Below are positions 27,465-44,747 of a stretch of DNA of 44,747 bases, piece by piece. The notes below the pieces were generated by a model. The model was not told the origin of the DNA and did no database searches. It saw only the letters and a program-made list of their open reading frames with translations. The stretch's first letter is position 1, and the number at the start of each line of letters is the position of its first letter. The position numbers were made by a program, and so were the translations under genes. The stretch is taken from NCBI GenBank assembly GCA_020073585.1, contig JAIQEV010000032.1, positions 1 to 44,747 of the forward strand. Direction: 5' to 3'. Source of the DNA: Terriglobia bacterium (GTDB lineage Bacteria > Acidobacteriota > Terriglobia > Acidiferrales > UBA7541).

Positions 27465-27480
27465 GCCCCGGAAAACGAAC

Positions 27481-28175: not shown

Positions 28176-29036
28176 TCACTGCGCCCGCAGCAGCTCCACC
28201 CGCGCCGTTCCCAGGGGCAGCACCGCTTCCAGCAGCACCGGCGTGCGCGCCGTCGTGTTCGCCAGATACACCGCGAGGTGCGTGTCCTTGCTCTCTGTGC
28301 CGTTCTCAAAAACGTGCAGCTCGATCTTCGACGCCGTAAATTCCCCCGCGGGAACCGTTACCTTCTCCGCGCTTCCGGCCAGCCGCGCGCGCACCTCGTA
28401 CAGCTTGTGCCCGTCGAAAACCGGGCTGCGCGCCTCGGGGCTTTTCGCCCAGTTCACCGTGCGCAGATATTGCAGCATTCCCAGCGGATCGCGGGTGCCG
28501 GGCAGGACCCGCGCAGCCGTGGCATCCGCCGGCGCCGCCTCTTTGCCCGTGCTCATGCGCAGCACGGAATCCACCCGCTGCCCGCGCTCGTTCAGCCGCA
28601 GCTCGTATTGCAAGCTCGCCAGCGTTGCGGCGTCGCTGTAGGAGTCGAATTGGTCATCCAGCACGAAGACCATGCGCAGCGGGTTCTGCGTGTGCGCGAA
28701 GGCCTGCAGGTGCCACGCCGCGCGTCCCAGGAACATGCGCTGCTCCCCCGCGACAAAGCGCAGTGAGGCCACGTTGTTGATCTTGGCCACATGCGCCGTG
28801 AATTCCAGGGTTTCGCTCTGCGGGAGCAGGGAAGCGGCCTCCCGCTCCCCCGCGGGCTTCGCTTTCGTCGCGGGATGCTCCGCCGGCGCTCCCGTGCTCG
28901 CGCCCGGTGCGGCGGCGGCGGACGTTGTGCCAGGCAGTGGCCGCCGCGGCGCGCGCCCGTGCCACAGCAGGGCCGTGGCGGTGAGCCCCAGTAAAATGAT
29001 GCCGGCGGCGCTCCAGTTGCGGATTGGGTGGTTCAT
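28176..29036 (-). CDS. DUF3108-containing exported protein
   Basis: A 286-residue product from ATG 29036 (MNHPIRNWSAAGIILLGLTA), preceded by AAGAGG. An N-terminal membrane anchor (10-27) and a low-complexity Ala/Pro/Gly linker (31-70) precede a DUF3108 domain: ETLEFTAHVAKINNVASLRF, MVFVLDDQFDSYSDAATL, KLYEVRARLAGSAEKVTV and a C-terminal LLEAVLPLGTARVELLRA. The domain is a beta-rich periplasmic fold of unknown function, often next to envelope genes. It is convergent with gmhA and divergent from the epimerase. Confidence 0.75.
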   Translation of the reverse strand: MNHPIRNWSAAGIILLGLTATALLWHGRAPRRPLPGTTSAAAAPGASTGAPAEHPATKAKPAGEREAASLLPQSETLEFTAHVAKINNVASLRFVAGEQRMFLGRAAWHLQAFAHTQNPLRMVFVLDDQFDSYSDAATLASLQYELRLNERGQRVDSVLRMSTGKEAAPADATAARVLPGTRDPLGMLQYLRTVNWAKSPEARSPVFDGHKLYEVRARLAGSAEKVTVPAGEFTASKIELHVFENGTESKDTHLAVYLANTTARTPVLLEAVLPLGTARVELLRAQ

Positions 29037-29251
29037 GCCTCTTATGCGACGTCGCGCAAATTCCGAACGCTTCCCCGCGCGGATTCCGTCGTACAATATC
29101 CCTTCGTGGGGGGTGGGCCTCATCGCGCTGGGCCCGTATTCACCGTACAAGCGTAACAGAAAGGCGGGGGCAGCGTCCCCGTAGGCCTCAAACCAGCGCC
29201 GCCGCGCCGCGGCGCCTGCAGCGGATAAACTTTCCAAGGAGGCACTCCTCA

Positions 29252-30202
29252 ATGCGTTACCTGGTGACGGGCGGCGCCGGTTTTATCGGCTCGAACACCG
29301 TCGACGAACTCGTCCGCCGCGGCCACAGCGTGGTGGTCCTGGACGACCTGTCTGCCGGCAAGGAAGAAAACCTCGCCGACGTCCGCGGCAAGATCACCTT
29401 CATGAAGGCCAGCATCACCGACCTCGAGGCCGTCCGCCGCGCCGTGCACGAGGCTGATTACGTCCTGCACCTCGCTGCGCGCACCTCCGTGCCCCGCTCG
29501 GTGAAGGACCCGCTCGAGACCAACCGCGTCAATATCGACGGCACGCTCAATGTTCTGGTGGCGGCCCGCGATGCCAAAGTCAAACGCATCGTCTTCGCCG
29601 CTTCCTCCTCGGCCTACGGCGAAACTCCCACCCTGCCCAAGGTCGAGACCATGCAGCCCGCCCCTATCTCTCCCTACGGCGTGACCAAGTACGTCGGCGA
29701 GCTCTACGCCCAGGTTTTCGGCCGCTGCTACGGCATCGAGAACGTTTGCCTGCGCTACTTCAACGTCTTCGGCCCGCGCCAGGATCCCAGCTCGCCCTAT
29801 TCCGGCGTGCTCTCCAAATTCATCACCTGCTGCCTCGACGACACGCAGCCCACCGTCTTTGGCGATGGCGAGCAGTCCCGCGATTTCACCTACGTGGACA
29901 ATGCCGTGCAGGCCAATCTCCTGGCCTGCGAAGCCCCCGGCGTTTCCGGCAAGGTTTTCAACGTGGGGACAGGGGCGCGCTACACCCTGAATCAGACCCT
30001 GCAACTCCTCGGCCAGATCGCCGGCAAACCCCTCGATGCCAAGTACGACCCGCCCCGCGAGGGCGACATCCGCGATTCTCAGGCCGACATCACCCTGGGC
30101 CGCAAGCTCCTCGCCTACGACCCCCAGGTCCACTTCGAAGAAGGACTGCGCCGCACCTTCGCCTGGTACCGCGCCGCCCAGCCCAAACCCGCCGAAAAGT
30201 AA
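29252..30202 (+). CDS. UDP-hexose/UDP-HexNAc 4-epimerase-like SDR
   Basis: A 316-residue extended SDR. ATG 29252 has AAGGAGG upstream. VTGGAGFIGSNTVDEL (5-20), VFAASSSAYGETPTLPKVE near 115 and ISPYGVTKYVGELYAQ (Tyr/Lys pair) near 140 give the active site. LRYFNVFGPRQDPSSPYSGVL is the form seen in WbpP/Gne UDP-GlcNAc C4-epimerases. FGDGEQSRDFTYVDNAV and an EGLRRTFAWYR tail complete the fold. It probably interconverts gluco and galacto sugars for the same glycan pathway. The substrate is not fixed by sequence. Confidence 0.87.
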   Translation: MRYLVTGGAGFIGSNTVDELVRRGHSVVVLDDLSAGKEENLADVRGKITFMKASITDLEAVRRAVHEADYVLHLAARTSVPRSVKDPLETNRVNIDGTLNVLVAARDAKVKRIVFAASSSAYGETPTLPKVETMQPAPISPYGVTKYVGELYAQVFGRCYGIENVCLRYFNVFGPRQDPSSPYSGVLSKFITCCLDDTQPTVFGDGEQSRDFTYVDNAVQANLLACEAPGVSGKVFNVGTGARYTLNQTLQLLGQIAGKPLDAKYDPPREGDIRDSQADITLGRKLLAYDPQVHFEEGLRRTFAWYRAAQPKPAEK

Positions 30203-30303
30203 CCGTAACCGGCTGGCCTCCAAGAAATCAGGGCGTCCCGACCCGCTCGGGGCGCCCCGGCATCACTCACAAGTCACAAGTCACGAATCACGAGTCACGT
30301 CTT

Positions 30304-33300
30304 CTACGGCTGCACCGTCTTCCCGTAGCTCAGCGGCTCCCCGGCCTTGGGCTGGTCGTAGTTCCAGAAAAACAGCGGTTCCAGCTTCTTCTGCTCCGGC
30401 CACACCTGATCCAGCGTGTCGCCTTCGAAGAGTTCGCCGTTCTTCATCACCCAGTGAATCGTGTTCGTGTTGCGGATGTCCTCGAGCGGGTTCTTGTCCA
30501 GGATCACTAGATCGGCCAGCTTCCCCGGCTCGAGCGACCCCAGGTCCTGCGGCCGCCCGATGATCTTTGCTCCGTTCAGCGTGGCGCAGCGCAGGACTTC
30601 CAGCGGCGTCATCCCCCCGCTCGCCAGCATCCACAGCTCCCAGTGGTACCCCAGCCCCTGCAGCTGCCCGTGGCTGCCCACCCCGATCAGCCCGCCGGCC
30701 CGCGCGATCTTCGCCGTCTGCGCCGCCAGCTTCGCGAACGCGTACTCGTCCTTGCGGAACCACCCCTCCCGCCTCTTCGTCTTTTCGTCCAGGATGCGGT
30801 GCGGCGTGAAGTGGTTCAGCTTGGCGTTGTCGTGCACCTCGCTGTTCTCGTACCAGTAGTTCTCCCCGAACGGCCCTCCGTAATTCACGATCAGCGTCGG
30901 CGTCTCCGCGATCCCCGACTGCGCGAACAACTGGATCACGTCCTTGTACAGCGGCACGATGGGCAGCGAGTGCTCGTTGCCGTGGAAGCCGTCGATCACG
31001 TGCGTCAGGTCCAGCTTCAGGTCCAGCCCGCCCTCCGTCGTCGGCATCATCTCCAGCTCTTTCGCCGCCTGCACCATGTACTGCCGCTGCTTGCGGTTGC
31101 CCACGATGTAGCTCTTGATGTTGTGCGTGCCGTAATACTTCCGGTACTTGGTCAGCACGCCCTTTGCTTCTTCCGCCGATTGAAAATTATTGTCCGAGAA
31201 CACTCCCGGCCCCGTCGAAAACGCCCGCAGCCCCAGAATCTCCCCGCTGTCCACCAGGTCCTCGTACGCGAACATGTCGTTCGTCGCCGTCTGCACGTCC
31301 AGTCCGGCGGTGACCCCGTAAGCCAGGTTGGCCAGGAAGTTCCAGTTCTGCGTGTCCAGGATGCCGCGCCGGATCTCGAACCAGTGCGCGTGGGTGTCGA
31401 TGAACCCCGGCACGATCGTCTTCCCGCGCACATCGAACACCTTGGCCCCCGCCGGCACGCTGCCCCGCGCTCCCACGCTCTTAATCCGGTTGTTTTCCAC
31501 GACGACGTCCGCGTTCTTCAGCACCTCGTCGCCCTTCATCGTCACCACCGTCGCCCCGCGCAGCACCACCGTGCCCTGCGGCTTCTTGCGCGGCACTTCC
31601 AGGTCCACGGCGATCTCTTCCACGCTCTTTTCCTGCTCCTTGAACTTCTCCGGCTTCTTCTCCGCGGCTTCGTCCTTCTTGCCTTCCTCTTTCTTTTCGC
31701 CGTTCTTCTTTTCCTCCTTGGGCGCCTCAAACGAGACGGCGCTCAGCGCCTGGCGGAAGAAGCTCGCGCCCACCGCCCAGGTAATCGTCTTGCCGTCATC
31801 GGCCCAGCCGAAATAGTCCGCCCCGATGTCCGTCAGGCGCTTCGCCGGAACCGACGCGCCCGTCACCAGCACCGTCGGCGCCTCTCCGCCCACCATCGGC
31901 ATGGCCACCACGTACAGCTGGTTCATCACGTGCGCCAGCACCCAGTTGCCGTCCGGGCTGACCCGCACGTCATCCGCCGCCACCGGCTCGTCGAACGCAT
32001 ACAGCCCCTGCCCCTTCACCTGCAGGTGCGTGCGCCGGTCCGTCCCGTCGTAGCGCAGGGACACCAGCCCATTCGGTGTATACACGTACACGCGCTCCTT
32101 CTCGTGCGTGAAGTGCGGCTTGCCCGCGCCCCGCGCCGGTAGGATCAGGTTGGCCGCTCCGCCCTCCGCCGGAATCCACACCAGTTCCGTGGCCGGAGTC
32201 TGTCCGAAGTCGTATTCGCTGTTCTCGTGGTCATAAGCATTGCCGCGCAACGCCACGATGCGCGTCCCGTCCGGCGACCACACCGGATCGCTGTAGAACG
32301 CGGTCACCTGCGTGAGCTGCTGCGGCGTTCCCCCCGCTGCCGCTACCTTCCAGATCTGCCCGCCTTCGGCCGACCACGTCACGTACGCCAGCGATTTCCC
32401 GTCCGGCGACCACGTCGGCTGGAATTCCCGCGCCGCTCCGCTGGTCACCCGCTGCGCTTTCCCGCCCGGAATCTCCATCACGTAGAGATGCGTCAGCGCC
32501 GAGAACGCCAGCTTCTTCCCGTCCGGTGATTCCACGGCATCCTGAATCAGCCGCACCTTCACCGGCCCGTCCTCCACGCGCTGCGGGAAATCCAGCTTCG
32601 GCCCCAGTTCCTGGGAAACCTGTGCGGTGAAGGGAATCACGCTTTCCTTGCCCGTGGCCAGTTCCAGCCGGCGGATCTTCCCGTCCTGGTTGTAGACGAT
32701 CTCTTGGCCCCCGGGCAGAAATGCATAGCCGGGAAAGAGGTCGCGCGTGAAGCGCGATTCCTGATCGTCGCGCGTCACCGGATACTTCACCCAGCGGTCC
32801 TCCCCGCTCTGCAGATTTCGCAGCCGCAGTCCGCTCTCCGTCTCGTAGCGCGTCACGTACAGCAGTTGCGTCCCGTCCGGCGACAGCACCGGGCGGAAGC
32901 TGCTCTCCAGTTGCTCCAACAGCACGTCCTCGTCGCCGGTCTTGCGGTCGCGCCGCGCCACCTGCCACAGCGGGAACTTCGCGTTGTACTGGAAGCCGCC
33001 CTTGCGCATCGCGTAATACAGATAGCGCCCGTCCGGCGAAGCCACCACGCCGATGGCGTTGTTCCGCTCGCGCCGCGGCGTGGTTGGCGTCATCTTTGCC
33101 TTGGTGATCTGCACTCCCGTGCCGCCCTGCAGGTGGTACATCCACAGCTCGAACGTGGTGATCCCGAACCCCGCCTTGGACACGAAAATGTACTGCCCGT
33201 CCGGCGACCAGCTCGGCGAAGCGAACTCGTTGTTAGGGTCCTTCGAGACTTGCTTCGCGTCGCTCCCGTCCGGCTTCATGATCCAGATGTTTTCGCTGCC

Positions 33301-33705
33301 CTCCCGGTCGCTGAGAAACGCGATCCATTTCCCGTCCGGCGAAAATTTCGGCTGGCTGTCGAACGCCATGCCCCCGGAGATGAGCTTCGCCTGCCCGCCC
33401 TCCACCGGCAGCGTGTAGATGTCCCCGAGCAGCTCGAACACGATCGTCTTGCCGTCCGGCGCGGCGTCCAGCGACAGCCATGTACCTTCGTCCGTCGTGA
33501 ACTCGATCTTGCGCGCGGATTTCAGCGACAGTCCCTTCTTCTCCTCTTTCTTCTCTTCCTTCTTTTCTTCTTTTTTCTCGTCCTTCGCCTGCGCCGCGCT
33601 CTCCTGCGGCTGCGCCATGCTGCGCGCCGCAAATCCCCCCAGGATCATCGCCCCCGCAACCAGCCATCCGGCCACACGGTGCCGCTTCACATGCTTCGCG
33701 TTCAT
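30304..33705 (-). CDS. Exported beta-propeller amidohydrolase fusion
   Basis: A 1133-residue protein from ATG 33705 (AGAGGAGAG upstream). A signal peptide (10-31) is followed by a Lys/Glu-rich stretch (41-57). Residues about 65-640 contain eight SPDG-type PD40/TolB blades plus one APDG (for example WSPDGQYIFVSK, LSPDGTQLLYVTR, WSPDGTRIVALRG). A second Lys/Glu-rich linker (about 660-690) leads to an amidohydrolase domain: KTIVPGFIDTHAHWFE near 768 (metal HxH), VSHGQLQGLGYHWEL and LRCATLNGAKIIGRPQDLGS near the end. Such fusions are annotated as imidazolonepropionase-like or tricorn-like and are probably periplasmic peptide or amide hydrolases; the substrate is unknown. It is on the same strand and downstream of the Asp-box gene. 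Confidence 0.88.
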   Translation of the reverse strand: MNAKHVKRHRVAGWLVAGAMILGGFAARSMAQPQESAAQAKDEKKEEKKEEKKEEKKGLSLKSARKIEFTTDEGTWLSLDAAPDGKTIVFELLGDIYTLPVEGGQAKLISGGMAFDSQPKFSPDGKWIAFLSDREGSENIWIMKPDGSDAKQVSKDPNNEFASPSWSPDGQYIFVSKAGFGITTFELWMYHLQGGTGVQITKAKMTPTTPRRERNNAIGVVASPDGRYLYYAMRKGGFQYNAKFPLWQVARRDRKTGDEDVLLEQLESSFRPVLSPDGTQLLYVTRYETESGLRLRNLQSGEDRWVKYPVTRDDQESRFTRDLFPGYAFLPGGQEIVYNQDGKIRRLELATGKESVIPFTAQVSQELGPKLDFPQRVEDGPVKVRLIQDAVESPDGKKLAFSALTHLYVMEIPGGKAQRVTSGAAREFQPTWSPDGKSLAYVTWSAEGGQIWKVAAAGGTPQQLTQVTAFYSDPVWSPDGTRIVALRGNAYDHENSEYDFGQTPATELVWIPAEGGAANLILPARGAGKPHFTHEKERVYVYTPNGLVSLRYDGTDRRTHLQVKGQGLYAFDEPVAADDVRVSPDGNWVLAHVMNQLYVVAMPMVGGEAPTVLVTGASVPAKRLTDIGADYFGWADDGKTITWAVGASFFRQALSAVSFEAPKEEKKNGEKKEEGKKDEAAEKKPEKFKEQEKSVEEIAVDLEVPRKKPQGTVVLRGATVVTMKGDEVLKNADVVVENNRIKSVGARGSVPAGAKVFDVRGKTIVPGFIDTHAHWFEIRRGILDTQNWNFLANLAYGVTAGLDVQTATNDMFAYEDLVDSGEILGLRAFSTGPGVFSDNNFQSAEEAKGVLTKYRKYYGTHNIKSYIVGNRKQRQYMVQAAKELEMMPTTEGGLDLKLDLTHVIDGFHGNEHSLPIVPLYKDVIQLFAQSGIAETPTLIVNYGGPFGENYWYENSEVHDNAKLNHFTPHRILDEKTKRREGWFRKDEYAFAKLAAQTAKIARAGGLIGVGSHGQLQGLGYHWELWMLASGGMTPLEVLRCATLNGAKIIGRPQDLGSLEPGKLADLVILDKNPLEDIRNTNTIHWVMKNGELFEGDTLDQVWPEQKKLEPLFFWNYDQPKAGEPLSYGKTVQP

Positions 33706-33981
33706 GCGTCTCTCCTCTGTCGTTGCTCGCAATCGTGGAAACTGGATTCTTGCCGGGCCGCCAACCTCAGCGCTCCCCCCGGCCCTCGGACACACCCCTT
33801 ATTGCCCTGTTTAGACGCACCGCGCCCGAAATCGTCTCGCCCAGTAGCACAGACTTCAGTCTGTGCTCTTCAGCTTTTGCCCGTCCCACACAAGCACAGA
33901 CTTCCGTCTGCGCTCTTCGCTTTTGCCCTTCCACCCCTGCACAGTCTCCCTCGCCTGCGCTCGGGACAACTTCCGCCTGTG
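33706..33981. repeat. Decaying 47-bp tandem repeat with internal hairpin
   Basis: Between the two large minus-strand genes, AGCACAGACT (33846-33855) pairs with AGTCTGTGCT (33858-33867). The unit reappears 47 bp later (33893-33914) as a mismatched copy with a TTCC loop, followed in both cases by CTCTTC and GCTTTTGCCC. A third remnant, ACTTCCGCCTGTGCT, lies near 33969. No gene is supported here. Confidence 0.75.
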
Positions 33982-36900
33982 CTACCTCTCTGACTCCTCT
34001 TCTTCGTCCCCGCCGCCCGCCGCCGGGGCCCCCGCCGCAGCCACGATGTGCGGAATCCCCGCCTCGTTCATCTTCTTGTTCAGCGCCGGCAGATCCTCTT
34101 CCGCCAGCTTCTTCACCTGCGCCGAAGCCTCCGTCACCAGCGCCGCCAGCTCCGCCATCTTCTCCTTCTGTTGCCCCCCGGGTGTCGCGACGAAACTGTC
34201 CAGTCCCGCCAGCAGTTCCTGCACGCGATTCGGCAGCGGATCCGGTTTCCATTCCAGCGGCGGTCCCGCGCTGCCCAGGCCCTCGCGCGGCCGCAGATAC
34301 TTCTCCGCCACCGCGTCCACCTTCTTCTGCAGCTCTTCTGCGGCTTTCTGGATCTCCTCCGGGATCTTCATCCCTCCCGCCTTGGCGGCCTCCTTCTTCC
34401 ATTGCTCGCGCGCGGCGGTCAGCGCCTCCTTCATGCCGGAGATCGTCTGGCGGTCCTTCCCCGCGATTTTCGCTATTTCGTACAGCTTGCTGATCGCCTC
34501 CCGGCGCGCGGCGCGTTCCGCCGGCGTAACCTGCACCCGCGGATCCTCTTCGACCACCACCTTTTGCGCCGCTTCCTTGGCCCCCGCCTTGATCTTCACC
34601 GTGTATTCACCCGGCTCGGCCAGCGGCCCGCGCGGCCCCGCGGACCAGCCTCCAGCTATGGCTTCCAGCTCTTCCGGTCTCGGCTCCGTGGTGGCATTCC
34701 AGCGCAGATCCCAGTTGGTGCGGTTTACCCCCGCCGCGCCCGGCCCGTCCATCTCCCGGACCACCTTCCCATCCTTGTCCAGCACGGTGATCTTCACCTT
34801 GCCTTCTTTCTTCGCCGCCGCCTTCTCTTTGTCCTCCGCCCCGGCCTTCGCCGCCTCGGGCGCCACCGCCTCCTTCAGGTAATAGTTCAGCACCGCTCCG
34901 TACGGCGGATTCTTCGCCGTGAACATCTTCTGTCCCGCGCTCCAGCGCCGCTGCCGGTGACGGAAGCTCGTTGCCGGCCGCACCTCGAAGAACGTCAAGT
35001 CCGACGCCAGCACCTCCGCGTTCAGTTTCTCGATCGGCGTCAGGTCGTCGAAGACCCAGATCGATCTCCCGTGCGTTCCCACGATCAGGTCGTTTTCCCG
35101 CGGCTGAATGGCGATATCGTCCACCGGCACCGTCGGAAAATTGTTCTTCAGCGCCGTCCAGTTCCCCCCGCGGTCCCAGGAGACCCACAGCCCGAACTCC
35201 GTTCCGGCAAAGAGCAGATTCGGGTTCCGCGGATGCTCGCGCACCACGTGCACCGACCCCGCCGAGTTGGGTATCCCCGTGCGAATGGCCTTCCAGTTCT
35301 CCCCATAATCCGTGGTCATGAAGAGGTACACGCCGTAGTCGTTCCCGCGGTGCCCGTCGAACGCCGCGTACGCCGTGCCTTCCGCGTATTTCGACGCCAC
35401 CACCCGGCTCACGTACGTTCCCTTGGGCACCCCGGGCGCCTTCCCCGCCACGTTCTTCCAGCTCTTCCCGCCATCCCGCGTTACTTGCAGGTTCCCGTCG
35501 TCCGTCCCCGCCCACAGCACGTTCGCCGTCAGCGGCGATTCGCTGATCGTCGTGATGCACGGATAGTCCTGAACGCCGTCGTGCCGCGAGAGCGTCTCCT
35601 TGTCCGGCACCTTGCCCAGGATCGGCAGCTTGTTGCGCTCCACCCCGGTGGTCAGGTCGCCGTCCAGCCGCGTCCAGGTGTCTCCGCGGTCCGTGGATTT
35701 GAAGAAAAAGTTTCCGCCATAGTAGATCGTGTTGTGGTCGTGCGCGGAGATGGCCACCGGAGAATTCCACTGAAACCGGTAGTGCGCCTCGCTCTCCTTG
35801 GCCTCCGGCATGACCTTGCGGTGCTGCATCGTGCGCAGGTCGAAGCGCGACAGCTCCCCGTCCTGCGATTCGTAATACACGGTCGCGGGATCCGCCGGGT
35901 CGGGCTGCACGTAGAAGCCGTCCCCGCTCGGAAACACCATCCAGTCGTCGTTGATGATCCCTTCGCGCGTCAGCGAATTGCTCGGCCCGCACCACGCTCC
36001 GTTGTCCTGCAGCCCCCCGCAGATGTGGTACGGCTTCTGCAGGTCGTAGCCCACTTCGTAGAACTGCCCGATGGCCAGGGTATTCACGAAGTCCCACGTC
36101 TTGCCCGCGTCGTAGCTCCAGTGAATGCCCCCATCCGACCCCGTGATCATGTGATTCGCATCCGCGGGATCGATCCACATGGCGTGGAAGTCCCCGTGGA
36201 TGCTCTTCACCCGCTGCGTCGTGAACGTCTTTCCCCCGTCCTCCGAGTAGTACATGTTCGCGCCCAGCACCCAGATGCGCAGGTCGTTCGTCGGATCGAT
36301 GCGGATCTGGCTGTAGTACGACGGCCGCGGGTCCGTGTCCCCCATCTTCTTCCACGTCTCGCCCTTGTCCTCGCTGCGGAACACCCCGCCCTTCTCGTGC
36401 TGCACCACGGCGTACACGATGTTGGAATTCCTGCGGTAGATGTCCAGCCCGATCCGCCCCACCTCTCCGCCGTTTTCATACGGCAGGCCCTTCGTCAGCT
36501 TCTTCCAGCTGGCCCCGCCGTCCGTCGTCTTGTAGATCGCCCCGCTCGTTCCCCCGCCGTTGAACCCGTACGCCGTGCGCCGCCTCTGGTACGCCGCCGC
36601 ATACAGCGTCTCCGGGCTCTCCGGATCCAGCGCGATGTCCGCCACGCCGGTGTCTTCGTTGATCTTCAGCACCTGCGACCAGCTCTTCCCGCCGTCCGTC
36701 GTCTTGTACACCCCGCGCTCCGCATTCGCTCCCCACAGGTGCCCGAGCGCCGCAACGTACACCACATCCGGATTTTTCGGATGGATCACGATTCGCCCGA
36801 TGTGCTGCGTCGCCTCCAGCCCCATCTTCTGCCACGTCTTCCCGCCGTCCAGCGACTTGTAGACTCCGTCGCCCCACGACGAGCTCTGCCGGTTGTTCGG

Positions 36901-37257
36901 CTCCCCGGTCCCCGCCCACACGATCGACGGGTCGGACGGCGCGATGGCCACGTCCCCGATTGTCGAGACGCCCTCTTTGTCGAAGACCGGCTCCCAGGTC
37001 GTCCCGCTGTTCGTGGTTTTCCACACTCCGCCTGAGGCCAGCCCCGCAAACACCACATTCGGAGTGCTCTCCACCACCGCAAAGTCGTCCACCCGCCCGC
37101 CCATCACCGCCGGCCCCAGCTCCCGGAATTCCAGATTCTTCAGCTTGTCCGCGGGATTCCCCTGATCGCCCCCCGGCGCCGCCCCTGCCGCGGCGGCCAG
37201 CAGCAGGCAGATCAGCATGGCGAGCATTGCTCTCGAGCTGTGCGATTTACGATTCAT
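33982..37257 (-). CDS. Exported VPS10/sortilin-like Asp-box protein
   Basis: A 1091-residue product from ATG 37257 (MNRKSHSSRAMLAML). Signal peptide 10-27. The body is a large propeller of the BNR/Asp-box type; I count eleven boxes of the S-x-D-x-G-x-T-W form (KSLDGGKTWQKM, KTTDGGKSWSQV, RSEDKGETWKKM, FKSTDRGDTWTRL, VTRDGGKSWKNV and others). It resembles acidobacterial and bacteroidete proteins annotated as glycosyl hydrolases, but no catalytic sialidase arginine triad was seen. The C-terminus (about 790-1091) is Lys/Glu/Ala-rich, probably helical, with an FGxA-like beta domain before it (KVKITVLDKDGKVVREM). Probably periplasmic or outer-membrane; ligand unknown. Confidence 0.86.
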   Translation of the reverse strand: MNRKSHSSRAMLAMLICLLLAAAAGAAPGGDQGNPADKLKNLEFRELGPAVMGGRVDDFAVVESTPNVVFAGLASGGVWKTTNSGTTWEPVFDKEGVSTIGDVAIAPSDPSIVWAGTGEPNNRQSSSWGDGVYKSLDGGKTWQKMGLEATQHIGRIVIHPKNPDVVYVAALGHLWGANAERGVYKTTDGGKSWSQVLKINEDTGVADIALDPESPETLYAAAYQRRRTAYGFNGGGTSGAIYKTTDGGASWKKLTKGLPYENGGEVGRIGLDIYRRNSNIVYAVVQHEKGGVFRSEDKGETWKKMGDTDPRPSYYSQIRIDPTNDLRIWVLGANMYYSEDGGKTFTTQRVKSIHGDFHAMWIDPADANHMITGSDGGIHWSYDAGKTWDFVNTLAIGQFYEVGYDLQKPYHICGGLQDNGAWCGPSNSLTREGIINDDWMVFPSGDGFYVQPDPADPATVYYESQDGELSRFDLRTMQHRKVMPEAKESEAHYRFQWNSPVAISAHDHNTIYYGGNFFFKSTDRGDTWTRLDGDLTTGVERNKLPILGKVPDKETLSRHDGVQDYPCITTISESPLTANVLWAGTDDGNLQVTRDGGKSWKNVAGKAPGVPKGTYVSRVVASKYAEGTAYAAFDGHRGNDYGVYLFMTTDYGENWKAIRTGIPNSAGSVHVVREHPRNPNLLFAGTEFGLWVSWDRGGNWTALKNNFPTVPVDDIAIQPRENDLIVGTHGRSIWVFDDLTPIEKLNAEVLASDLTFFEVRPATSFRHRQRRWSAGQKMFTAKNPPYGAVLNYYLKEAVAPEAAKAGAEDKEKAAAKKEGKVKITVLDKDGKVVREMDGPGAAGVNRTNWDLRWNATTEPRPEELEAIAGGWSAGPRGPLAEPGEYTVKIKAGAKEAAQKVVVEEDPRVQVTPAERAARREAISKLYEIAKIAGKDRQTISGMKEALTAAREQWKKEAAKAGGMKIPEEIQKAAEELQKKVDAVAEKYLRPREGLGSAGPPLEWKPDPLPNRVQELLAGLDSFVATPGGQQKEKMAELAALVTEASAQVKKLAEEDLPALNKKMNEAGIPHIVAAAGAPAAGGGDEEEESER

Positions 37258-37590
37258 GGTATTTCCTCTCTGGTTGTTCCGGGTGTGCCACGCGCAGGCC
37301 AAAATCATACCGCCGCTGCCCCCTGCGCTGCATCCTTTGTTTCTGGAAATGGTGTTTGTTCCCGTTGAATACAGGACGTGCGGCGTTCCGCCCGCGTTTC
37401 ACCCCGCGGGACAGGCAGTCCTGTTTCCCCTCTTTTGTGGCACAGCCATTCCTGGCTGTGCTCTTCATCCTCCCGCGGACATGCGCCGCCTCTCTTCCTT
37501 GACCCGCCCTCAACTCGCGCCCCGCGCTCCGCCCCCGCTACACAACCTCCACCCTGCGTGCTAGGCTAGCGGACTGTTTTGACTGGACCC
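37258..37590. other. Divergent intergenic region with palindromic elements
   Basis: This 333-bp gap separates the Asp-box gene from lptD. It holds ACAGGCAGTCCTGT-type and GCACAGCCA-TTCC-TGGCTGTGC hairpins; the second (37440-37461) is followed by TCTTC, as in the 33846 repeat. No coding sequence is supported. Confidence 0.5.
37440..37461. repeat. GCACAG-type hairpin repeat
   Basis: GCACAGCCA (37440-37448), loop TTCC, TGGCTGTGC (37453-37461), then TCTTC. It shares ends and loop with the tandem repeat at 33846-33914, so both probably belong to one family. Confidence 0.65.
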
Positions 37591-39924
37591 ATGGTGCGCG
37601 TGAACTCTTTCCCCCACACCCGGCTTCCGGCGCTCCCCCGCCCGGCCCTCCACGCGGCGCTGCGGCGCGCCGCGGGCGCCCTGCTCGTTCTCTTCTTGGC
37701 CGGGCTTCTTCTGCCGCGCCCCGCCCGCGCCGCCCAGCAGGTGCGCCTGCCCGCGGGCAAGGGCGGGATCGTCGAGCTTTCCGCCGCCGGGCCGCAGCGC
37801 CGCCAAGGTGAGCTTTTCACGGCCGATGACGACGTGCAGATCGCCTACCAGGGCATGCGCCTGCGCGCCGACCACGTCGAATTCAACTCCCGCACCTCCG
37901 AAGCCCTGGCCCGCGGCCACGTCCTCTTCGAGTTCGCCAACCAGCGCCTCGAAGCCGACGAAGCCCAGTACAACGTGCGCACCGGCCACGGCACTTTCCG
38001 CAACGTCCGCGGCACCGTCAAGATGGAGCGCCGCGCCAACCCCGCCGTGCTCCTCTCCGACAATCCTCTCTATTTCCAGGCCCGCGAAGTCGAGCGCCTC
38101 GAGAACGATCTCTATGTCGTGCGCCATGCCTGGGTCACCGTCTGCGATCCCGTCCGCCCCAAGTGGCAGTTCTTTGCGCCCCATGCGCGCATCCGCGTGG
38201 GCAAGACCGTGGCCCTGGTCAACGCCAATTTCCGCTTCTTCCGCGTGCCCTTGGTCTGGCTGCCCTACGCCAGCGCCCCCGCCGGGCGCAAGATCCGCCA
38301 GTCCGGCTTTCTTGTTCCGGACATCGGCAGCAGTACCCGCAAGGGCTTCATTCTCGGCGACGCCTTCTACTGGGCCCCCGCTCCGTGGATGGATGCCACC
38401 CTGGGCGCGCAATTCATGAGCCGCCGCGGTTTCAGCCAGCACGCCGACTTCCGCGCCACCCCCTCGGAGAACACCTCCTTCCATTACAGCTACTTCGGCG
38501 TCGTGGATCGTGGCCTCCCCGACTCTCTCGGCGTCCGCCACCCCCAGGGCGGCCATCAGCAGGAGTTCCAGTTCATCTCCCTCCTCCCCAGCGGCTGGCG
38601 CGCCGTCGCCGACATCAACCAGATCTCTTCGCTCACTTTCCGCCTCGCCTTCGCCGACAGTTTCGGCGAGGCCGTCAACTCCGAACTGCGCAGCGCCGGC
38701 TTCCTCACCAATAATTTCCGCGGCTTCAGCCTCAATTTCGCTGCCGTCAACGACCGCAGCTACCTCACCATTCAGCCCGAGACCAGCGTCGTCCTGCGCC
38801 GCGCGCCGGAGGCCCGCTTCAGCTCCGTCGAGCAGGCCCCCTGGAAAAACCTCCCCGTCTATTTCGGCTTTTCCGCCGTGGCCGGCGCCCTCCATCGCGA
38901 CGATTCCACCCTCGACACTCCCTCCGCCGTGCAACGCTCGGAGTTCGCCCCCCGCGTCACCTTCCCCTTTCATTTCGGCCCCTGGCTCGGCGTCACCTCC
39001 ACCGCGGCCATCCGCGTCACGCGCTACGGCGCTTCCCTCGATGGCTCCGGCGCTCTCTCCGCGCAATCCGTCACCCGCAATACCGGCGAGTTCACCCTCG
39101 ACCTCCGCCCTCCCGCCTTCGAGCGCATCTTTTCCAGGCCTTCCTCGCGCCGCAAATGGAAGCACACCGTCGAGCCGGGCATCCTCTACCGCTATGTCAC
39201 CGGCGTCCGCGATTTCAGCCGTTTCATCCGCTTCGATCAGGACTCCACTCTCTCCGACACCAGTGAAGTCGAATACGGCGTGACCCAGCGCCTCTTCCGC
39301 AAGGATGCCGGCGCCCAGTCCGAGGAGTTCCTCTCCTGGCGCGTCCTGCAAAAGCACTATTTCGACCCCACCTTCGGCGGCGCCATCGTTTCCGGCCAGC
39401 GCAACGTCCTGCAGGCCCTCAATTCCCTCACGCCCTTCGCCTTCGCCGACGGCCCCCGCCATTTCTCCCCCGTCGTCAGCGACCTCAAGGTCACCCCCGG
39501 CGGGCGCTACGACGCCGAGTCCATCCTCGAATACGACACCCAGCGGAGTAAGCTCACGGTCATCGGTTCGCTCCTCAAGATGCGCCCCTACGCCAATTTC
39601 TCCGCCACCCTGGCCCATTTCCGCGTCCAGGCCAATCCCTTGCTCCAGCCCTTTTCCAATCAGGTCCGCGCCCTCCTCGGCTACGGGGAGATGAACCGCC
39701 GCGGCTTCAACGCCGCCGGCGGCTTCACCTACGACATCACCCGCGGCTTCCTCCAGAACCAGATCGTGCAGGTAAGTTTCAACGGCGGCTGCTGCGGCAT
39801 CGCCGTGGAATACCGCCGCATCGCCCTCGGCCAGGTGCGCACGGAGAACCAGTTCCGCGTCGCCCTCATCCTCGCCAACATCGGCACCTTCGGCAACCTG
39901 CGCCGCCGCGAAAAGATTTTCTAG
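37591..39924 (+). CDS. lptD: LPS-assembly protein LptD (OstA)
   Basis: LptD is the outer-membrane barrel that inserts lipopolysaccharide into the outer leaflet. The protein is 777 residues from ATG 37591; a TTG at 37579 adds four residues. A signal peptide (27-49, ALRRAAGALLVLFLAGLLLPRPARA) is followed by an OstA/LptA-like periplasmic domain (FTADDDVQIAYQGMRLRADH near 70, EADEAQYNVRTGHG). The barrel domain follows, with RKIRQSGFLVPDIG, TVEPGILYRYVTGV near 528 and SWRVLQKHYFD. The C-terminal GGCCGIAVEYRRIALG carries the paired cysteines typical of LptD; the N-terminal partner may be in VTVCDPVRPKW. It is divergent from the Asp-box gene. Confidence 0.92.
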   Translation: MVRVNSFPHTRLPALPRPALHAALRRAAGALLVLFLAGLLLPRPARAAQQVRLPAGKGGIVELSAAGPQRRQGELFTADDDVQIAYQGMRLRADHVEFNSRTSEALARGHVLFEFANQRLEADEAQYNVRTGHGTFRNVRGTVKMERRANPAVLLSDNPLYFQAREVERLENDLYVVRHAWVTVCDPVRPKWQFFAPHARIRVGKTVALVNANFRFFRVPLVWLPYASAPAGRKIRQSGFLVPDIGSSTRKGFILGDAFYWAPAPWMDATLGAQFMSRRGFSQHADFRATPSENTSFHYSYFGVVDRGLPDSLGVRHPQGGHQQEFQFISLLPSGWRAVADINQISSLTFRLAFADSFGEAVNSELRSAGFLTNNFRGFSLNFAAVNDRSYLTIQPETSVVLRRAPEARFSSVEQAPWKNLPVYFGFSAVAGALHRDDSTLDTPSAVQRSEFAPRVTFPFHFGPWLGVTSTAAIRVTRYGASLDGSGALSAQSVTRNTGEFTLDLRPPAFERIFSRPSSRRKWKHTVEPGILYRYVTGVRDFSRFIRFDQDSTLSDTSEVEYGVTQRLFRKDAGAQSEEFLSWRVLQKHYFDPTFGGAIVSGQRNVLQALNSLTPFAFADGPRHFSPVVSDLKVTPGGRYDAESILEYDTQRSKLTVIGSLLKMRPYANFSATLAHFRVQANPLLQPFSNQVRALLGYGEMNRRGFNAAGGFTYDITRGFLQNQIVQVSFNGGCCGIAVEYRRIALGQVRTENQFRVALILANIGTFGNLRRREKIF

Positions 39925-39951
39925 CACTATGTTGAAAAGAGCATAAAACGC

Positions 39952-40022
39952 CGTCATTCCGAGCGGAGCGAGGAACCGCTGCCCCTTCGTCCGCGTAGTT
40001 GGCGGGCGAAGAATCTCTCTTC
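39952..40022. repeat. GTCATTCCGAGCG-type repeat element
   Basis: The sequence begins CGTCATTCCGAGCGGAGCGA, contains CCCCTTCGTCCGCGTAG and ends GAAGAATCTCTCTTCGAAG. It fills most of the 132-bp gap between lptD and the amidase. It resembles the widespread GTCATTCCGAGC...GAAGAATCTC repeats of soil bacteria, seen here from memory and not verified. Confidence 0.6.
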
Positions 40023-40056
40023 GAAGCGGCCAGGAAAATTCGGACAGGACAAGCCA

Positions 40057-42513
40057 ATGAACGACACCGATCTCGCCTTCGCTTCCATCCCCCAGGTCGC
40101 CGCGCTCTTCCGCAAGCGCCGGCTCTCCCCCGTCGAGCTCACCGAGTTGATGCTCGCGCGCATCGCGCGCCTCAATCCCAGACTCAATGCCTACCTCACC
40201 CTTACCGCCGAACTCGCCCTCGCCCAGGCCAAAAAAGCCGAAGCCGAACTCTGCGCCCCGCGCGGTCGCAAGAGCCGCCGCGATCGCGGCCCCCTCCACG
40301 GCATCCCCATCTCCCTCAAGGACAACATCTACACCAAGGATGTCCGCACCACTGCCGGTTCCAGGATCCTGAAGGATTTCGTCCCCCTGCATGACGCGCA
40401 GGTTGTCCTCCAACTGAAAGAGGCCGGCGCCGTGATCCTCGGCAAGACCAACATGCACGAGTTCGCCTACGGCGTTACCTCCAACAATCCGCACTACGGC
40501 GCCGTCCGCAATCCCTGGGACACCGAGCGCATTTCCGGCGGCTCCAGCGGCGGCTCCGCCGCGGCCGTCGCCGCCGGCCTCTGCTACGCCAGCATCGGCA
40601 CCGACACCGGCGGCTCCATCCGCATCCCCGCCGCCCTCTGCGGCATCGTCGGCCTCAAGCCCACCTTGGGCCGCGTGTCCGTGGAAGGGGTCATCCCGCT
40701 CTCTCCCCGCCTCGATTGCGTCGGGCCCCTGGCGCGCACCACCCAGGATGCCGCCATTCTTCTCGATTCCATTTTCCTGCGCGTGCCCGGCGAACCGCCT
40801 CTGCGTTCCCTGGGGAAACTCCCCGCGCCATCCCGCAAATTCCGTCTCGGCCTGCCCCGGGAATTTTTCTTTGACCGGGTCTCCGGCGAAATCCGGAATG
40901 TCTTCGAGGCCGCACTCCGCTCTTTCCGCGGACACGGCGCGGAAACGAAAGAAGTTTCCATCCCTCTATTGGAAGAAACGGAAGATGCCGGCAATCAGAT
41001 CGCCTGGGCCGAGGCCACCCACTACCACCAGCAGTCGGGATGTTTCCCGGCCCGCGCGGCGCAGTACGGCGAAGATGTCCGCACCCGCCTGGAAATGGGA
41101 ACTAAGGTTTCGGCAACGGTCTACTTGGAAGCGCTCGAGAGGCGCGATAAATTCATCCAGCAGCTCCACCTGGCGCTGGCCGACGCGCGCCTCGATACGC
41201 TTGTTGTTCCCACGACTCCGATCGCCGCGCCGCTCCTGGGCGAAGACGCCACCCGCATCGGGGAAAGGGATTATCCCACTCGTGCGCTGTTGCTTCGTCT
41301 GAACCGCCCCGCCAATCTCGCGGGCGTTCCGGCCATTTCCGTCCCCTGCGGCTTCACGCCCTCCGGCCTCCCCGTCGGCCTGCAACTCATTGGCGCCGTG
41401 ACCGATGAGCCTCTTCTCCTGCCGCATCAGCTTCCCGCCCAGCCAGTAGCCCAGCGTCCCGGTGACAATGCCCCCGAAAATATCCACCATGTAGTGATAC
41501 CGCCCGTACACCGTCGAGATGCACATGCTCACCACCAGCGGCAGAAACACCCAGAACACCCGCCGCCGGTGCGCCCACGCCCCCCACAGCGCCGCAAACG
41601 CTCCCGCCACGTGCTCCGAGGGAAACGCCGCCCCGCGCACCCGCCCGTAGTGCTCGATGAAACCGATCAGTGCCGTGAACGGCCCGCCGCGCAGTTCCGT
41701 GTGCCACGCTCCCGCCAGTTGAAACCACGGGCTCTGTATCGGGAACACCGCCGCGATCACGTACCCCATCGCGTACCCGGCCATCGAATACGTCATCACC
41801 GACCAGTAGCCCTGCCAGTCCCGCCGGTAATACAGAATCCCCCCCAGAATCAGCAGGTACGTGAAATACGTGATGTAGGCGAACTGCATGTACTCGTTCA
41901 GCACGGGATTCGCGAAGCGCTCCAGCCACAGCACCGGATTCACCCCGGTGATCCACGTATCCGCCGCGATCAGTTTCCCGTCGAACCAGCCCGGATGGAC
42001 CATGTGCACGAGATACGCCAGCTCTTCGAAGCAAAAGAGGAAAAAGAGGTGCGGGTACCAGTGCCGCCAGAAATGCCAGAAGCGGCTCGCAAACGATCCC
42101 CCGTTCCGCGCCGCGCGTTCCGCCGACCGCGCGTAGATCCAGCACAGCCCCAGAACCGCCGCGGAGAGCAGCCCCTGCGTCGCCACCAGCCGCCCCGGAT
42201 GCGCCAGGTTCCGCGCAAACACCGCGATCAGCGCCGACGACACCCCCAGGTAGCCCAGCGCCACCCATTCGTAGGCGCCGCACGCCTTCCACGCCGCGGT
42301 CAGTTCCCGTTGCACCCGCCCTGCGATGGTCTGCTCCCTTGCCGGCTCGCGCGCGCCCCAAGTTCCGCCGGGCCACGGCAGCGCCGCGCTGTTTTGCGAA
42401 TATCTCGTTTCTTCCATTTTACTCACAGGTTCGACTCCCACCGGCTCTTCCTCCCTCCCGTTTCTCCCTGCACACGCCCTGCCCCGCTTCTCTCACAAGT
42501 GATCCCTCTGTAG
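40057..42513 (+). CDS. Amidase (GatA-like) with lost stop codon; frame runs on into antisense PAP2 gene
   Basis: An amidase-signature hydrolase with Lys88 (PISLKDN), Ser163 (ISGGSSGGSAAA) and nucleophile Ser187 (GTDTGGSIRIPAA), the Lys-cisSer-Ser triad. Homology continues to GLPVGLQLIGAVTDEPLLL near residue 454 (about 41420). After that the frame, open to 42513 (818 codons), reads the complementary strand of the PAP2 gene, giving Pro/His/Arg-rich sequence without homology. A normal family member would need about 25 more residues and a stop. Neither other + frame restores the ending. The catalytic core is complete, so a functional enzyme is possible. Substrate unknown; no gatB/gatC is seen. 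Confidence 0.85.
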   Translation: MNDTDLAFASIPQVAALFRKRRLSPVELTELMLARIARLNPRLNAYLTLTAELALAQAKKAEAELCAPRGRKSRRDRGPLHGIPISLKDNIYTKDVRTTAGSRILKDFVPLHDAQVVLQLKEAGAVILGKTNMHEFAYGVTSNNPHYGAVRNPWDTERISGGSSGGSAAAVAAGLCYASIGTDTGGSIRIPAALCGIVGLKPTLGRVSVEGVIPLSPRLDCVGPLARTTQDAAILLDSIFLRVPGEPPLRSLGKLPAPSRKFRLGLPREFFFDRVSGEIRNVFEAALRSFRGHGAETKEVSIPLLEETEDAGNQIAWAEATHYHQQSGCFPARAAQYGEDVRTRLEMGTKVSATVYLEALERRDKFIQQLHLALADARLDTLVVPTTPIAAPLLGEDATRIGERDYPTRALLLRLNRPANLAGVPAISVPCGFTPSGLPVGLQLIGAVTDEPLLLPHQLPAQPVAQRPGDNAPENIHHVVIPPVHRRDAHAHHQRQKHPEHPPPVRPRPPQRRKRSRHVLRGKRRPAHPPVVLDETDQCRERPAAQFRVPRSRQLKPRALYREHRRDHVPHRVPGHRIRHHRPVALPVPPVIQNPPQNQQVREIRDVGELHVLVQHGIREALQPQHRIHPGDPRIRRDQFPVEPARMDHVHEIRQLFEAKEEKEVRVPVPPEMPEAARKRSPVPRRAFRRPRVDPAQPQNRRGEQPLRRHQPPRMRQVPRKHRDQRRRHPQVAQRHPFVGAARLPRRGQFPLHPPCDGLLPCRLARAPSSAGPRQRRAVLRISRFFHFTHRFDSHRLFLPPVSPCTRPAPLLSQVIPL
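40966..42417 (-). CDS. PAP2 phosphatase, Aur1/IPC-synthase-like, with lost stop codon
   Basis: A polytopic membrane protein with helices at about 50-67, 83-96, 122-140, 178-197, 208-226 and later. Catalytic motifs are FPSEHV (His269) and GRYHYMVD (His308, Asp312), with HTELRGGPF, as in Aur1/inositol-phosphorylceramide synthases and related PAP2 transferases. The domain ends near GYWLGGKLMRQEKR (residue 336, about 41410). Beyond that the frame reads antisense through the amidase to 40966 (483 residues in all). I chose ATG 42417, one nt after the HAD stop codon; GTG 42441 is possible. It is the third gene of the minus-strand lipid operon. A role in transferring or removing a phosphoryl headgroup is inferred. 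Confidence 0.83.
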   Translation of the reverse strand: MEETRYSQNSAALPWPGGTWGAREPAREQTIAGRVQRELTAAWKACGAYEWVALGYLGVSSALIAVFARNLAHPGRLVATQGLLSAAVLGLCWIYARSAERAARNGGSFASRFWHFWRHWYPHLFFLFCFEELAYLVHMVHPGWFDGKLIAADTWITGVNPVLWLERFANPVLNEYMQFAYITYFTYLLILGGILYYRRDWQGYWSVMTYSMAGYAMGYVIAAVFPIQSPWFQLAGAWHTELRGGPFTALIGFIEHYGRVRGAAFPSEHVAGAFAALWGAWAHRRRVFWVFLPLVVSMCISTVYGRYHYMVDIFGGIVTGTLGYWLGGKLMRQEKRLIGHGANELQADGEAGGREAAGDGNGRNAREIGGAVQTKQQRTSGIIPFPDAGGVFAQERRGDRSRGNNKRIEARVGQRQVELLDEFIAPLERFQVDRCRNLSSHFQAGADIFAVLRRAGRETSRLLVVVGGLGPGDLIAGIFRFFQ

Positions 42514-43378
42514 GGGCGGACCTTGGTCCGCCCGCTGCTGCATCACCACCCCCCGCCCGCTTCGGCACCCGCCGCATCGTTCTCTCTGATTGCCCCGCCG
42601 CTTCTCCCCCGCGCCGCCTCTCCGCCTCCCGCTCCCAGCGCAAAATCGGCCACCCTTCGCGCCGGGCCCGCAGCGCCAACTTCCGCGCAGGATTCACGGC
42701 CACCGGCCGTCCCACCGCCTCCAGCATCCAGCGGTCCTCGCTGCTGTTTCCGTAGGCGTAGCACTCCTCCAGCGCGTAGCCTTCGCGCTCCGCAATCCCC
42801 TGTACCGCGCGGGCCTTCGCCGCGCCCGCCAGCGCTTCGTCCGCCAGCCGCCCCGTCCACCGCCCGCCCGCCTCTTCCAGCCGCGTCCCGCGCACGTGCA
42901 CCATCGTCGCGCAGCCCCGCGCGCGCAGCTCCGCATCCAGCGCCCGCGCCGCCAGCATCGCCAGCGGCTGCAGCGTCCCGCTCACCAGCACCAGCGCGTG
43001 TCCCTGCCGCGCATGCCAGACCATCCGTTCGAGCCCTGCGGGAAAAAATGTTGCGCCCGCCGCCGCTCCCGCCCTGCTCGCGCGGCCGGCCTCTTCGCCG
43101 CATTCCGGATTTGCCTGGAACAGCATTCCCCGGAACGCCGTCGCCGCATCCGCGCGCACCCCCCGCAGATACATCTTGTTGCCGTGTCGCAGCGCGAACA
43201 TCCCGCGCGGCGCCAGCCGCGCCGCCTCCGCCAGCCAGCTCAGCATCTGCCGCGCCCCGATCTCTCCGCGGTAGCGCAGCACCCGGTAAAACCGCATCTC
43301 CAGTGCCGGCCCTGGCAGCAGCGTGCCGTCCAGATCGAAAAACGCCGCGCTGCGCAGCGGCCGTAGCAGCAGGCTCAT
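42419..43378 (-). CDS. HAD subfamily IB phosphatase
   Basis: A 319-residue protein. Motif I is AAFFDLDGTLLPG (Asp15 and Asp17), motif II LVLVSGTLQPLA, motif III Lys in the KARAVQGIAER helix and motif IV YAYGNSSEDRWML. It matches the IB class that includes SerB-like and PgpC-like lipid phosphatases. Homology ends near residue 265; the last 50 residues are coded by a palindromic repeat (42510-42534) and a tmRNA-tail-like fragment (42428-42447) and look accidental. The start overlaps the CDP-alcohol transferase stop by 4 nt (ATGA), so the genes are co-translated. It probably dephosphorylates the product of that transferase; this is inference from context. Confidence 0.83.
   Translation of the reverse strand: MSLLLRPLRSAAFFDLDGTLLPGPALEMRFYRVLRYRGEIGARQMLSWLAEAARLAPRGMFALRHGNKMYLRGVRADAATAFRGMLFQANPECGEEAGRASRAGAAAGATFFPAGLERMVWHARQGHALVLVSGTLQPLAMLAARALDAELRARGCATMVHVRGTRLEEAGGRWTGRLADEALAGAAKARAVQGIAEREGYALEECYAYGNSSEDRWMLEAVGRPVAVNPARKLALRARREGWPILRWEREAERRRGGEAAGQSERTMRRVPKRAGGGDAAAGGPRSAPTEGSLVREAGQGVCREKREGGRAGGSRTCE
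42428..42447 (+). other. 20-nt fragment resembling a tmRNA/tRNA 3' end
   Basis: GGTTCGACTCCCACCGGCTC followed by TTCC resembles the T-loop to acceptor end of tmRNA (and of some tRNAs). The 5' half of the T stem and the rest of an RNA gene are absent, so it is not a functional gene. Such 3' fragments are commonly left as attachment-site remnants by integrative elements. Confidence 0.4.
42510..42534. repeat. Palindromic repeat of the GTAGGGGC type inside HAD 3' end
   Basis: GTAG then GGGCGGACC (42514-42522), TT loop, GGTCCGCCC (42525-42533). It has the same GTAGGGGC head as 5190-5214 and lies within the nominal coding end of the HAD gene, supporting insertion of a mobile palindrome. Confidence 0.7.
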
Positions 43379-44019
43379 GCCGCCTCCTGTGCCGCGGATT
43401 TTCCCCCGCGCCCGCTCTGCACGCTCTTCGCGAAATACCGCCACCCTTCCAGCAGCACCGGCAGTCCACGCACCAGACAGAACGCCGCCGTCGTCCACGT
43501 AAGTATTTGCGCCCCGGCGCGAATCGCGCCCTGCGCCTCCGCGGCCAGCGTGCCCAGCAGCGCCACCGGCCCGCGCGCCAGCGCCAACTCCAGCCCCAGG
43601 TAGCAGAAGCAGATGCACTTCAGCGCCGCGTACACTCCGCGGCTCCACCGCGAAGCCACCAGCGCCTGCCCGATCCGCGTCTGCAGCATCGCATTGGCTC
43701 CCCATCCGCTGTGCCCGGCCCGCGCCGCCAGTCCGCGCAGAAAATCCGTAGCCGCCCCGCGCGCGAAGAAAAACACCGGCAGCCACAGCGACACCATCCC
43801 GACCACCGCAAAATACGTGAAGTACACGTTCTCGATCATCCGGTCGCCCAGGATGTCGATCTGCGCTCCCTCCGGTGTCGCCAGATTTTTCCGCCGCGCC
43901 AGGTGTCCATCCAGCGCGTCCAGCGCAATCGCCGCCACCGTCAGCCCCACCCCCGCCAGATTGGCCCACGCCCCCCGCCCAAAGAGACACACCGCCGCAA
44001 ACCCCACCCCCACCCGCAA
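43375..44019 (-). CDS. CDP-alcohol phosphatidyltransferase (possibly frameshifted at 5' end)
   Basis: A 214-residue membrane protein. The complete family motif is present: D-A-L-D-G-H-L-A-R, then eight residues, G-A-Q-I-D-I-L-G-D (Asp34, Asp37, Gly51, Asp55, Asp59). Enzymes of this family condense CDP-diacylglycerol with glycerol 3-phosphate, serine, inositol or inositol phosphate. Several hydrophobic helices follow. The first usable codon in frame is TTG 44019. An upstream ATG at 44048 in another frame encodes MSWTPNKVTG, exactly the missing conserved N-terminal TPNxxT motif, which would join the protein if one base were added near 44020. The stop overlaps the HAD start. The headgroup is not determined. 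Confidence 0.82.
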   Translation of the reverse strand: MRVGVGFAAVCLFGRGAWANLAGVGLTVAAIALDALDGHLARRKNLATPEGAQIDILGDRMIENVYFTYFAVVGMVSLWLPVFFFARGAATDFLRGLAARAGHSGWGANAMLQTRIGQALVASRWSRGVYAALKCICFCYLGLELALARGPVALLGTLAAEAQGAIRAGAQILTWTTAAFCLVRGLPVLLEGWRYFAKSVQSGRGGKSAAQEAA

Positions 44020-44511
44020 CCCGTCACTTTATTCGGCGTCCAGCTCATAGCCCTATTGCCTGCCGAAGAGTGGAATGCAGGTCTTGTGCCACGGCTAATT
44101 TCCGTAATTTATTCTGAATGCAGCACTTACAGCCTTGTCAGCAGAGCGCCCCCACCCCCTCCCGCCGGATTATCCCGACACTGCCTGCTATTTCGTGCCA
44201 TCTCCCACCTTGCACTCGTCCTCGCTCGCTCTGGAAGCTCGGCATCTCTTCCTAACCCATCCAACACCCGCCCACCGCTCGGAATCCCGCCTCCCTCTGC
44301 CGCTCGGCTATCGTCAGTTTGCTCGTTGCGTCTAATCAGCACATGCCACGTCTCGCCCCGGGCACAGCCTTCCCCGCGCAGCGCAAACTTTCCGGGGGCT
44401 TGCCCGCGCACCTGGCGCAGCTTCTTTCCCTGCGTTTGTGCGAAAATGAAATGTGCGCGCGGATCGCCCCGCTCTTCCGGCGAGGCCGAACGACAGGAGC
44501 ATAGTTTGGGC
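44020..44511. other. Divergent intergenic region before ccdA
   Basis: This 492-bp gap lies between the lipid operon (minus) and ccdA (plus). It holds the likely lost N-terminus of the CDP-alcohol transferase (44020-44048) and the sigma-54-like site at 44076-44091. The remainder (44100-44510) is pyrimidine-rich, with no supported gene or RNA. Confidence 0.4.
44076..44091 (-). promoter_or_regulatory. Sigma-54-like -24/-12 promoter for the lipid operon
   Basis: On the minus strand TGGCACAAGACCTGCA gives GG and GC separated by exactly 10 bp, with a full TGGCAC -24 box and TGCA at -12. The expected start falls near 44066, about 18 nt before ATG 44048. No upstream activator site was identified, and one chance match of similar quality lies inside a coding region (16045-16060). 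Confidence 0.4.
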
Positions 44512-44747
44512 ATGACCGACGTTTCACTCGCAGCGGCTTTTCTGGCGGGACTGGTGTCTTTCCTCTCCCCCTGCGTCCTGCCCCTCGTCCCTGGCTACAT
44601 CTCCATGCTCAGCGGCATTGGCATGGAGCAGTTGCGCCAGGGCGAATCGCCCAAAGCCGGGCTCTTTGCCTCTTCCCTGGCCTTCGTCGGCGGCTTTTCC
44701 CTGGTCTTCATCTCTTTCGGCGCTTCGGCCAGCGCCGTCGGCCAGTT
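44512..44747 (+). CDS. ccdA: Cytochrome c biogenesis protein CcdA (5' part, cut by window edge)
   Basis: CcdA carries electrons across the inner membrane to periplasmic thiol-disulfide proteins. The first 78 residues are visible: VSLAAAFLAGLVSFLSPCVL, PLVPGYISMLSG, then two more hydrophobic stretches (SLAFVGGFSLVFISFGASAS). Cys21 in LSPCVLPLVPGY is the first of the two redox cysteines. AGGAG lies about 13 nt before ATG 44512; an in-frame TTG at 44506 would be closer to it. The second cysteine lies beyond the edge. Confidence 0.9.
   Translation, partial: MTDVSLAAAFLAGLVSFLSPCVLPLVPGYISMLSGIGMEQLRQGESPKAGLFASSLAFVGGFSLVFISFGASASAVGQ

Follow-up and report, generated by a model that had tools for sequence, protein, structure and literature searches.

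An amidase gene and a PAP2-family gene meet tail to tail in a Terriglobia genome, each without a stop codon of its own, probably as the outcome of a lineage-specific deletion that removed their facing 3' ends together with the spacer between them, an event seen here as a difference between assemblies. The genes are convergent, with the amidase on the plus strand and the PAP2-family gene on the minus strand, and they adjoin at positions 41421|41422 of the window, the whole 44,747-nucleotide stretch of DNA that was analysed. Measured against the sister genome (G009), a single deletion of 307 bp would have taken both stops, both coding ends and the spacer.

The gene pair and its reading frames

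The amidase frame opens at 40057 on the plus strand and encounters no stop until 42513, a span of 818 codons. On the minus strand, the PAP2 open reading frame (ORF; 40966-42441) encodes 491 amino acids from a GTG at 42441, or 483 from an ATG at 42417, and its only stop is at 40966. The two ORFs overlap across 40966-42513 (1548 nt) and have codon boundaries in common, with amidase codon 459 and a PAP2 Lys codon both occupying 41431-41433. An earlier note on this DNA had described the two genes as fused tail to tail, both stopless, with frames running to 42513 and 40966, and this is what the ORFs show. It had also placed the end of PAP2 homology at KLMRQEKR. That placement stands up to R332 of KLMR, whereas QEKR is the antisense of the amidase codons CCT CTT CTC CTG, and the bases that encode it align with the amidase of G009. 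QEKR does resemble the PAP2 end of one relative (L024), leaving a few bases of doubt on the PAP2 end. The features of the locus are as follows:

40057..41421, plus strand: amidase gene, codons 1-455 (amidase signature family; Pfam PF01425), without the last 18 codons and the stop of G009
41421..41422, no strand: putative deletion junction, where 307 bp of G009 are absent (nucleotide alignment with L002/L066)
41422..42417, minus strand: PAP2-family gene, codons 1-332 from the ATG at 42417 (Pfam PF14378), without the last 10 codons and the stop of G009
41422..42513, plus strand: read-through tail of the amidase frame, running antisense to PAP2 for 363 codons before a stop and matching no family in Pfam or NCBIfam
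40966..41421, minus strand: read-through tail of the PAP2 frame, running antisense to the amidase for 151 codons before a stop and likewise unmatched in Pfam and NCBIfam
41423..41428, plus strand: CGCATC at the junction, the same six bases as at both G009 breakpoints

The PAP2 gene is arranged head to tail with genes for a HAD-type hydrolase and a CDP-alcohol phosphatidyltransferase (window 41422-44019, minus strand), a run that could represent a phospholipid head-group operon. No lipid pathway was suggested by the genes upstream of this operon in G009, as judged from ORFs read by eye.

Comparison with the closest genome

G009 is the closest genome in the set (~91% amino-acid identity) and carries the same genes in the same convergent order, with orthologues 91% (amidase) and 90% (PAP2) identical in amino-acid sequence to those of the window. 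Past the point that matches window 41421, the end of amidase codon 455, its amidase continues for 18 more codons (RIAHAFERAHPDHRRPPL) before a stop. A 217-bp spacer follows, then the PAP2 stop and 10 PAP2 codons, and similarity to the window picks up again at 41422, where PAP2 codon 332 ends. The breakpoints are 0 bp apart in the window versus 307 bp in G009, with the placement of the junction ambiguous by 1 bp (a C); this 307-bp segment of G009 is without a window counterpart, and the window is otherwise colinear. The earlier note had proposed a deletion of both 3' ends, and the presence of the missing segment in G009 supports it.

Six colinear blocks, 86.6-91.6% identical in nucleotides, make up the alignment of the stretch common to the two genomes (window 27362-44747); small gaps within them were left unplaced. 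Nucleotide identity in the blocks flanking the junction is 90.8% towards the amidase and 86.6% towards PAP2, and the remaining block breaks are intergenic or at the start of LptD. When ORFs were compared over the same stretch, several starts differed, but paired loss of gene ends was confined to this junction.

Other differences from G009 lie elsewhere in the window. Two adjacent large minus-strand ORFs (30304-33795 and 33982-37308; 1163 and 1108 codons) both have G009 counterparts, and the second starts 50 codons later in the window than in G009. The HAD gene (42419-43990, minus strand) diverges from G009 more than its neighbours do (dN/dS 0.446, 77.6% identity), and the two copies also differ by about 20 codons at the end of the gene. 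The spacer between LptD and the amidase is ~50 bp longer in the window; at 39955-39975, between the same two genes, is a dispersed motif, CATTCCGAGCGNAGCGAGGAA, with 17 exact copies in the window's genome and five in G009 (none in either for a reversed control). Another short dispersed sequence, which by eye contains an inverted repeat, is located in the G009 spacer (about 2998-3066 of oriented locus L002), and the window's genome carries 36-65 nt pieces of this spacer in several places.

Gene ends and spacing across the genus

A survey of spacing covered 65 loci, of which 45 carry both genes and represent 22 genomes, the window's included; the 20 loci with one gene within reach (six amidase, 14 PAP2) were left out of the counts, and a genome with loci in two collections contributed once. 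In every one of the 21 genomes besides the window's that carry the pair on a single locus, the amidase has a stop of its own after 18-22 further residues; its end and stop are likewise present in 19 of 19 relatives of a second, overlapping set. At least 63% identity to the amidase was found in 21 of 24 other genus genomes, the G008 copy being cut by a contig end. PAP2 ends are variable among relatives in both length and sequence: in 19 of 21 the stop falls within 6-23 residues of the point where the alignment ends; in the other two the PAP2 frame runs 95 nt (G005) and 98 nt (G016) into the amidase (loci L006/L063, L016/L037), which would represent further stop shifts at the same locus. An intergenic gap of 14-1234 nt separates the genes in 13 of the 21 relatives. 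In the remaining eight they overlap by 4-98 nt (98 nt in G016, 95 nt in G005, 12 nt in G019 and 4 nt in five genomes).

When 801 bp around the junction were searched against 36 genus genomes, an unbroken match was found in the window's own genome and in none of the 35 others, in which matches reaching the junction (query position 322/323) end at most 14 bp past it. Natural ends for both genes are ruled out on these comparisons. Relatives ending at these very residues had been named in the earlier note as evidence that would count against its reading; no relative examined does so, and the amidase is longer in 21 of 21. In a table of 20 rows, one for each distinct left end, G009 has its breakpoints 307 bp apart; of the 18 other rows, 16 give distances of 86-240 bp and two exceed 1.2 kb. 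Since this distance varies among relatives, the length lost in the window's lineage may differ from 307 bp.

Why both frames stay open

With codon boundaries in common, a stop in the antisense frame requires a TTA, CTA or TCA codon. Among the 4450 codons of seven of the window's gene stretches, a sample chosen by the authors that includes both overlapping genes, 10 are of these three kinds. The explanation given in the earlier note, that such codons are rare, thus holds in this genome. At the window's codon usage, a tail of 363 codons would stay open with a probability of ~0.44 and one of 151 codons with ~0.71. Shifted into either of the other phases, the amidase frame would meet a stop after eight or 13 codons and the PAP2 frame after 49 or 10. 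The antisense phase is usually less open in relatives: counted by genome, one of 25 amidases would pass 151 codons, and five of 30 PAP2 genes are free of antisense-stop codons in their aligned part. In G009, the amidase and the PAP2 gene contain one such codon each. The tails are long for the genus, yet consistent with the low use of TTA, CTA and TCA in this lineage. How readily long open frames arise here is illustrated by an antisense ORF of 1124 codons, taken as spurious, that lies over LptD and the amidase. Chance openness nevertheless leaves the loss of both conserved ends unexplained.

Origin of the junction

The hexamer CGCATC is found at both breakpoints in G009 (L002 oriented 2866-2871 and 3174-3179, 308 bp apart as counted by hand) and may have aided the deletion. 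The window retains one copy, preceded by one extra C that CGCATC alone leaves unexplained. Slippage at a short repeat is a plausible mechanism. Elsewhere in the window's genome, no match to the missing coding ends was better than E 0.31 among the 40 of 62 first-look candidates that were scored, and the best match to the 308-nt query among these (62.6 bits) falls in its intergenic part. A second genomic copy of the missing segment was considered and rejected, as the matches among the 40 of 62 candidates scored are short pieces of dispersed intergenic sequence.

Pairwise dN/dS against G009, an average over the two branches that leaves the event undated, is 0.167 for the amidase, 0.233 for PAP2, 0.223 for LptD, 0.446 for HAD and 0.120 for the CDP-alcohol transferase. 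Derived residues, scored at positions where 70% or more of the other loci share the residue (some genomes being present twice), number six in the window versus eight in G009 for the amidase, two versus four for PAP2, 11 versus six for LptD, none versus four for HAD and two versus five for the CDP-alcohol transferase. A long-decayed amidase is rejected, given that neither measure indicates relaxed constraint. This absence of decay fits a recent event and also an artefact; if the deletion is real, it is probably recent.

Such an artefact would have arisen if the coding flanks had been joined during assembly or scaffolding with omission of the spacer, which holds short dispersed intergenic sequence in the sister genome. 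Though less likely, this reading has points in its favour: the sequence comes from a draft in 113 contigs, short-read assemblies can be broken by repeats and strain mixtures, 36-65 nt stretches of the spacer recur in the window's genome, and the amidase and PAP2 genes both look normally constrained. However, the breakpoints are in coding sequence, outside the recurring pieces, and have ~6 bp in common in the sister genome, whereas k-mer assemblers need longer overlaps. The junction is also one base longer than a simple overlap of the CGCATC repeat would give, and there is no run of N at this point. The sequence comparisons therefore favour a small lineage-specific deletion of a well-known kind, with an assembly error appearing less likely.

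Consequences for the two proteins

According to Pfam, both catalytic domains end before the junction. The amidase matches PF01425 (E 2.6e-122) over residues 27-455 and profile positions 1-445 of 445, to the last position of the profile. K88, S163 and S187, which we take to be the Lys and the two Ser of the amidase catalytic triad, are invariant in 19 sequences. Outside the Pfam definition, orthologues in the genus have a predicted C-terminal helix that is missing from the window amidase. The model built for the full-length G009 amidase places this helix at residues 451-464, in a block of pLDDT 70-81 (model mean pLDDT 54.4). No helix is predicted at 451-464 in the model of the window amidase, the sequence of which is replaced after residue 455, and nearly all of residues 448-818 fall below pLDDT 50, with three short low-confidence helices (mean 45.1). 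The models derive from shallow alignments (18 and 19 sequences) and are poor at residues ~72-225 in both; given this modest quality, only the C-terminal helix was used and the tail is treated as weak evidence. Among solved structures, 56 distinct PDB sequences match the amidase, with GatA chains matching up to residue 447-459. As modelled, the amidase has lost most of its C-terminal helix as well as its stop, and it is likely damaged and becoming a pseudogene, although the full match to the Pfam profile counts against a loss of function.

The PAP2 domain (PF14378; E 3.4e-17) is complete before the junction, covering residues 149-326 and profile positions 3-190 of 190. FPSEH and GRYHYMVD, picked out of the translation by eye, may correspond to the PSxH- and RxxHxxxD-like motifs of the PAP2 superfamily. 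The protein matches phosphoinositol dihydroceramide synthase weakly (18.8 bits against a cut-off of 480), and no PDB sequence was matched at E up to 0.1. What PAP2 has lost is a short, variable end and its stop; with its whole domain retained, it may still work. Given that PAP2 ends vary among relatives, this protein probably tolerates such change better than the amidase.

A ribosome translating either message would continue along the antisense strand of the neighbouring gene until it met a chance stop. Neither tail matches a Pfam or NCBIfam family at E 0.001. The tails are likely accidental, and the analysis gives no support to their being parts of working proteins. A functional reciprocal overlap, with both extended proteins produced under selection and each tail being an overprinted new domain, is given very little credence. 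The frames do stay open for 363 and 151 codons, beyond what the same phase allows in most relatives, and convergent overlaps do exist in the genus (in the eight relatives noted above). Against this, the tails resemble no Pfam or NCBIfam family, the openness fits the codon usage of a genome with a presumably spurious 1124-codon antisense ORF at the same locus, and the arrangement occurs in no relative examined. The very low model confidence of the amidase tail points the same way, but low confidence is expected in any case for a tail with no relatives in the alignment. It is similarly most improbable that one deletion gave rise to a reciprocal overlap of ~1.5 kb from which both extended proteins are made and one antisense-coded tail is kept by selection; were a tail under selection, it would be a new protein domain born by double read-through.

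Relation to known gene overlaps

Convergent overlaps and the movement of stop codons have been linked previously. One survey places 124 of 178 convergent overlaps longer than 60 bp in a 3'-end-extension group, as misannotations or errors, and describes 54 as possibly real (PMC2478687). Overlaps arising from a mutated or deleted stop codon are modelled in another study (PMC2174442), and it is argued in a third that convergent overlaps need stop movement (PMC4161906). The preferred reading, a deletion of both gene ends, provides a clear example of two stop codons being shifted together by one deletion, with the undeleted state seen in a sister genome, and it shows why the result looks like a very long convergent overlap in GC-rich genomes. 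It also carries a warning for annotation: the ORFs read as an 818-amino-acid amidase and a PAP2 protein of 483-491 amino acids, the tails of which are probably meaningless.

The window resembles stop-codon-loss overlaps as these sources outline them (group iii of PMC2478687; PMC2174442) in that the genes are convergent, their 3' ends exceed those of orthologues and the stops are deleted or mutated; the two genes are apart or barely overlapping in 21 of 21 relatives, and both stops are lost compared with G009. It differs in that one deletion would have taken both stops and both coding ends, and in that the nominal 1548 nt overlap arises because the frames share codon boundaries at 65% GC. The short overlaps of relatives (G016, G005, G019 and the five others) involve the same genes in the same orientation with overlapping 3' ends but, unlike the window, they keep the amidase end and its stop, and the overlap remains short.
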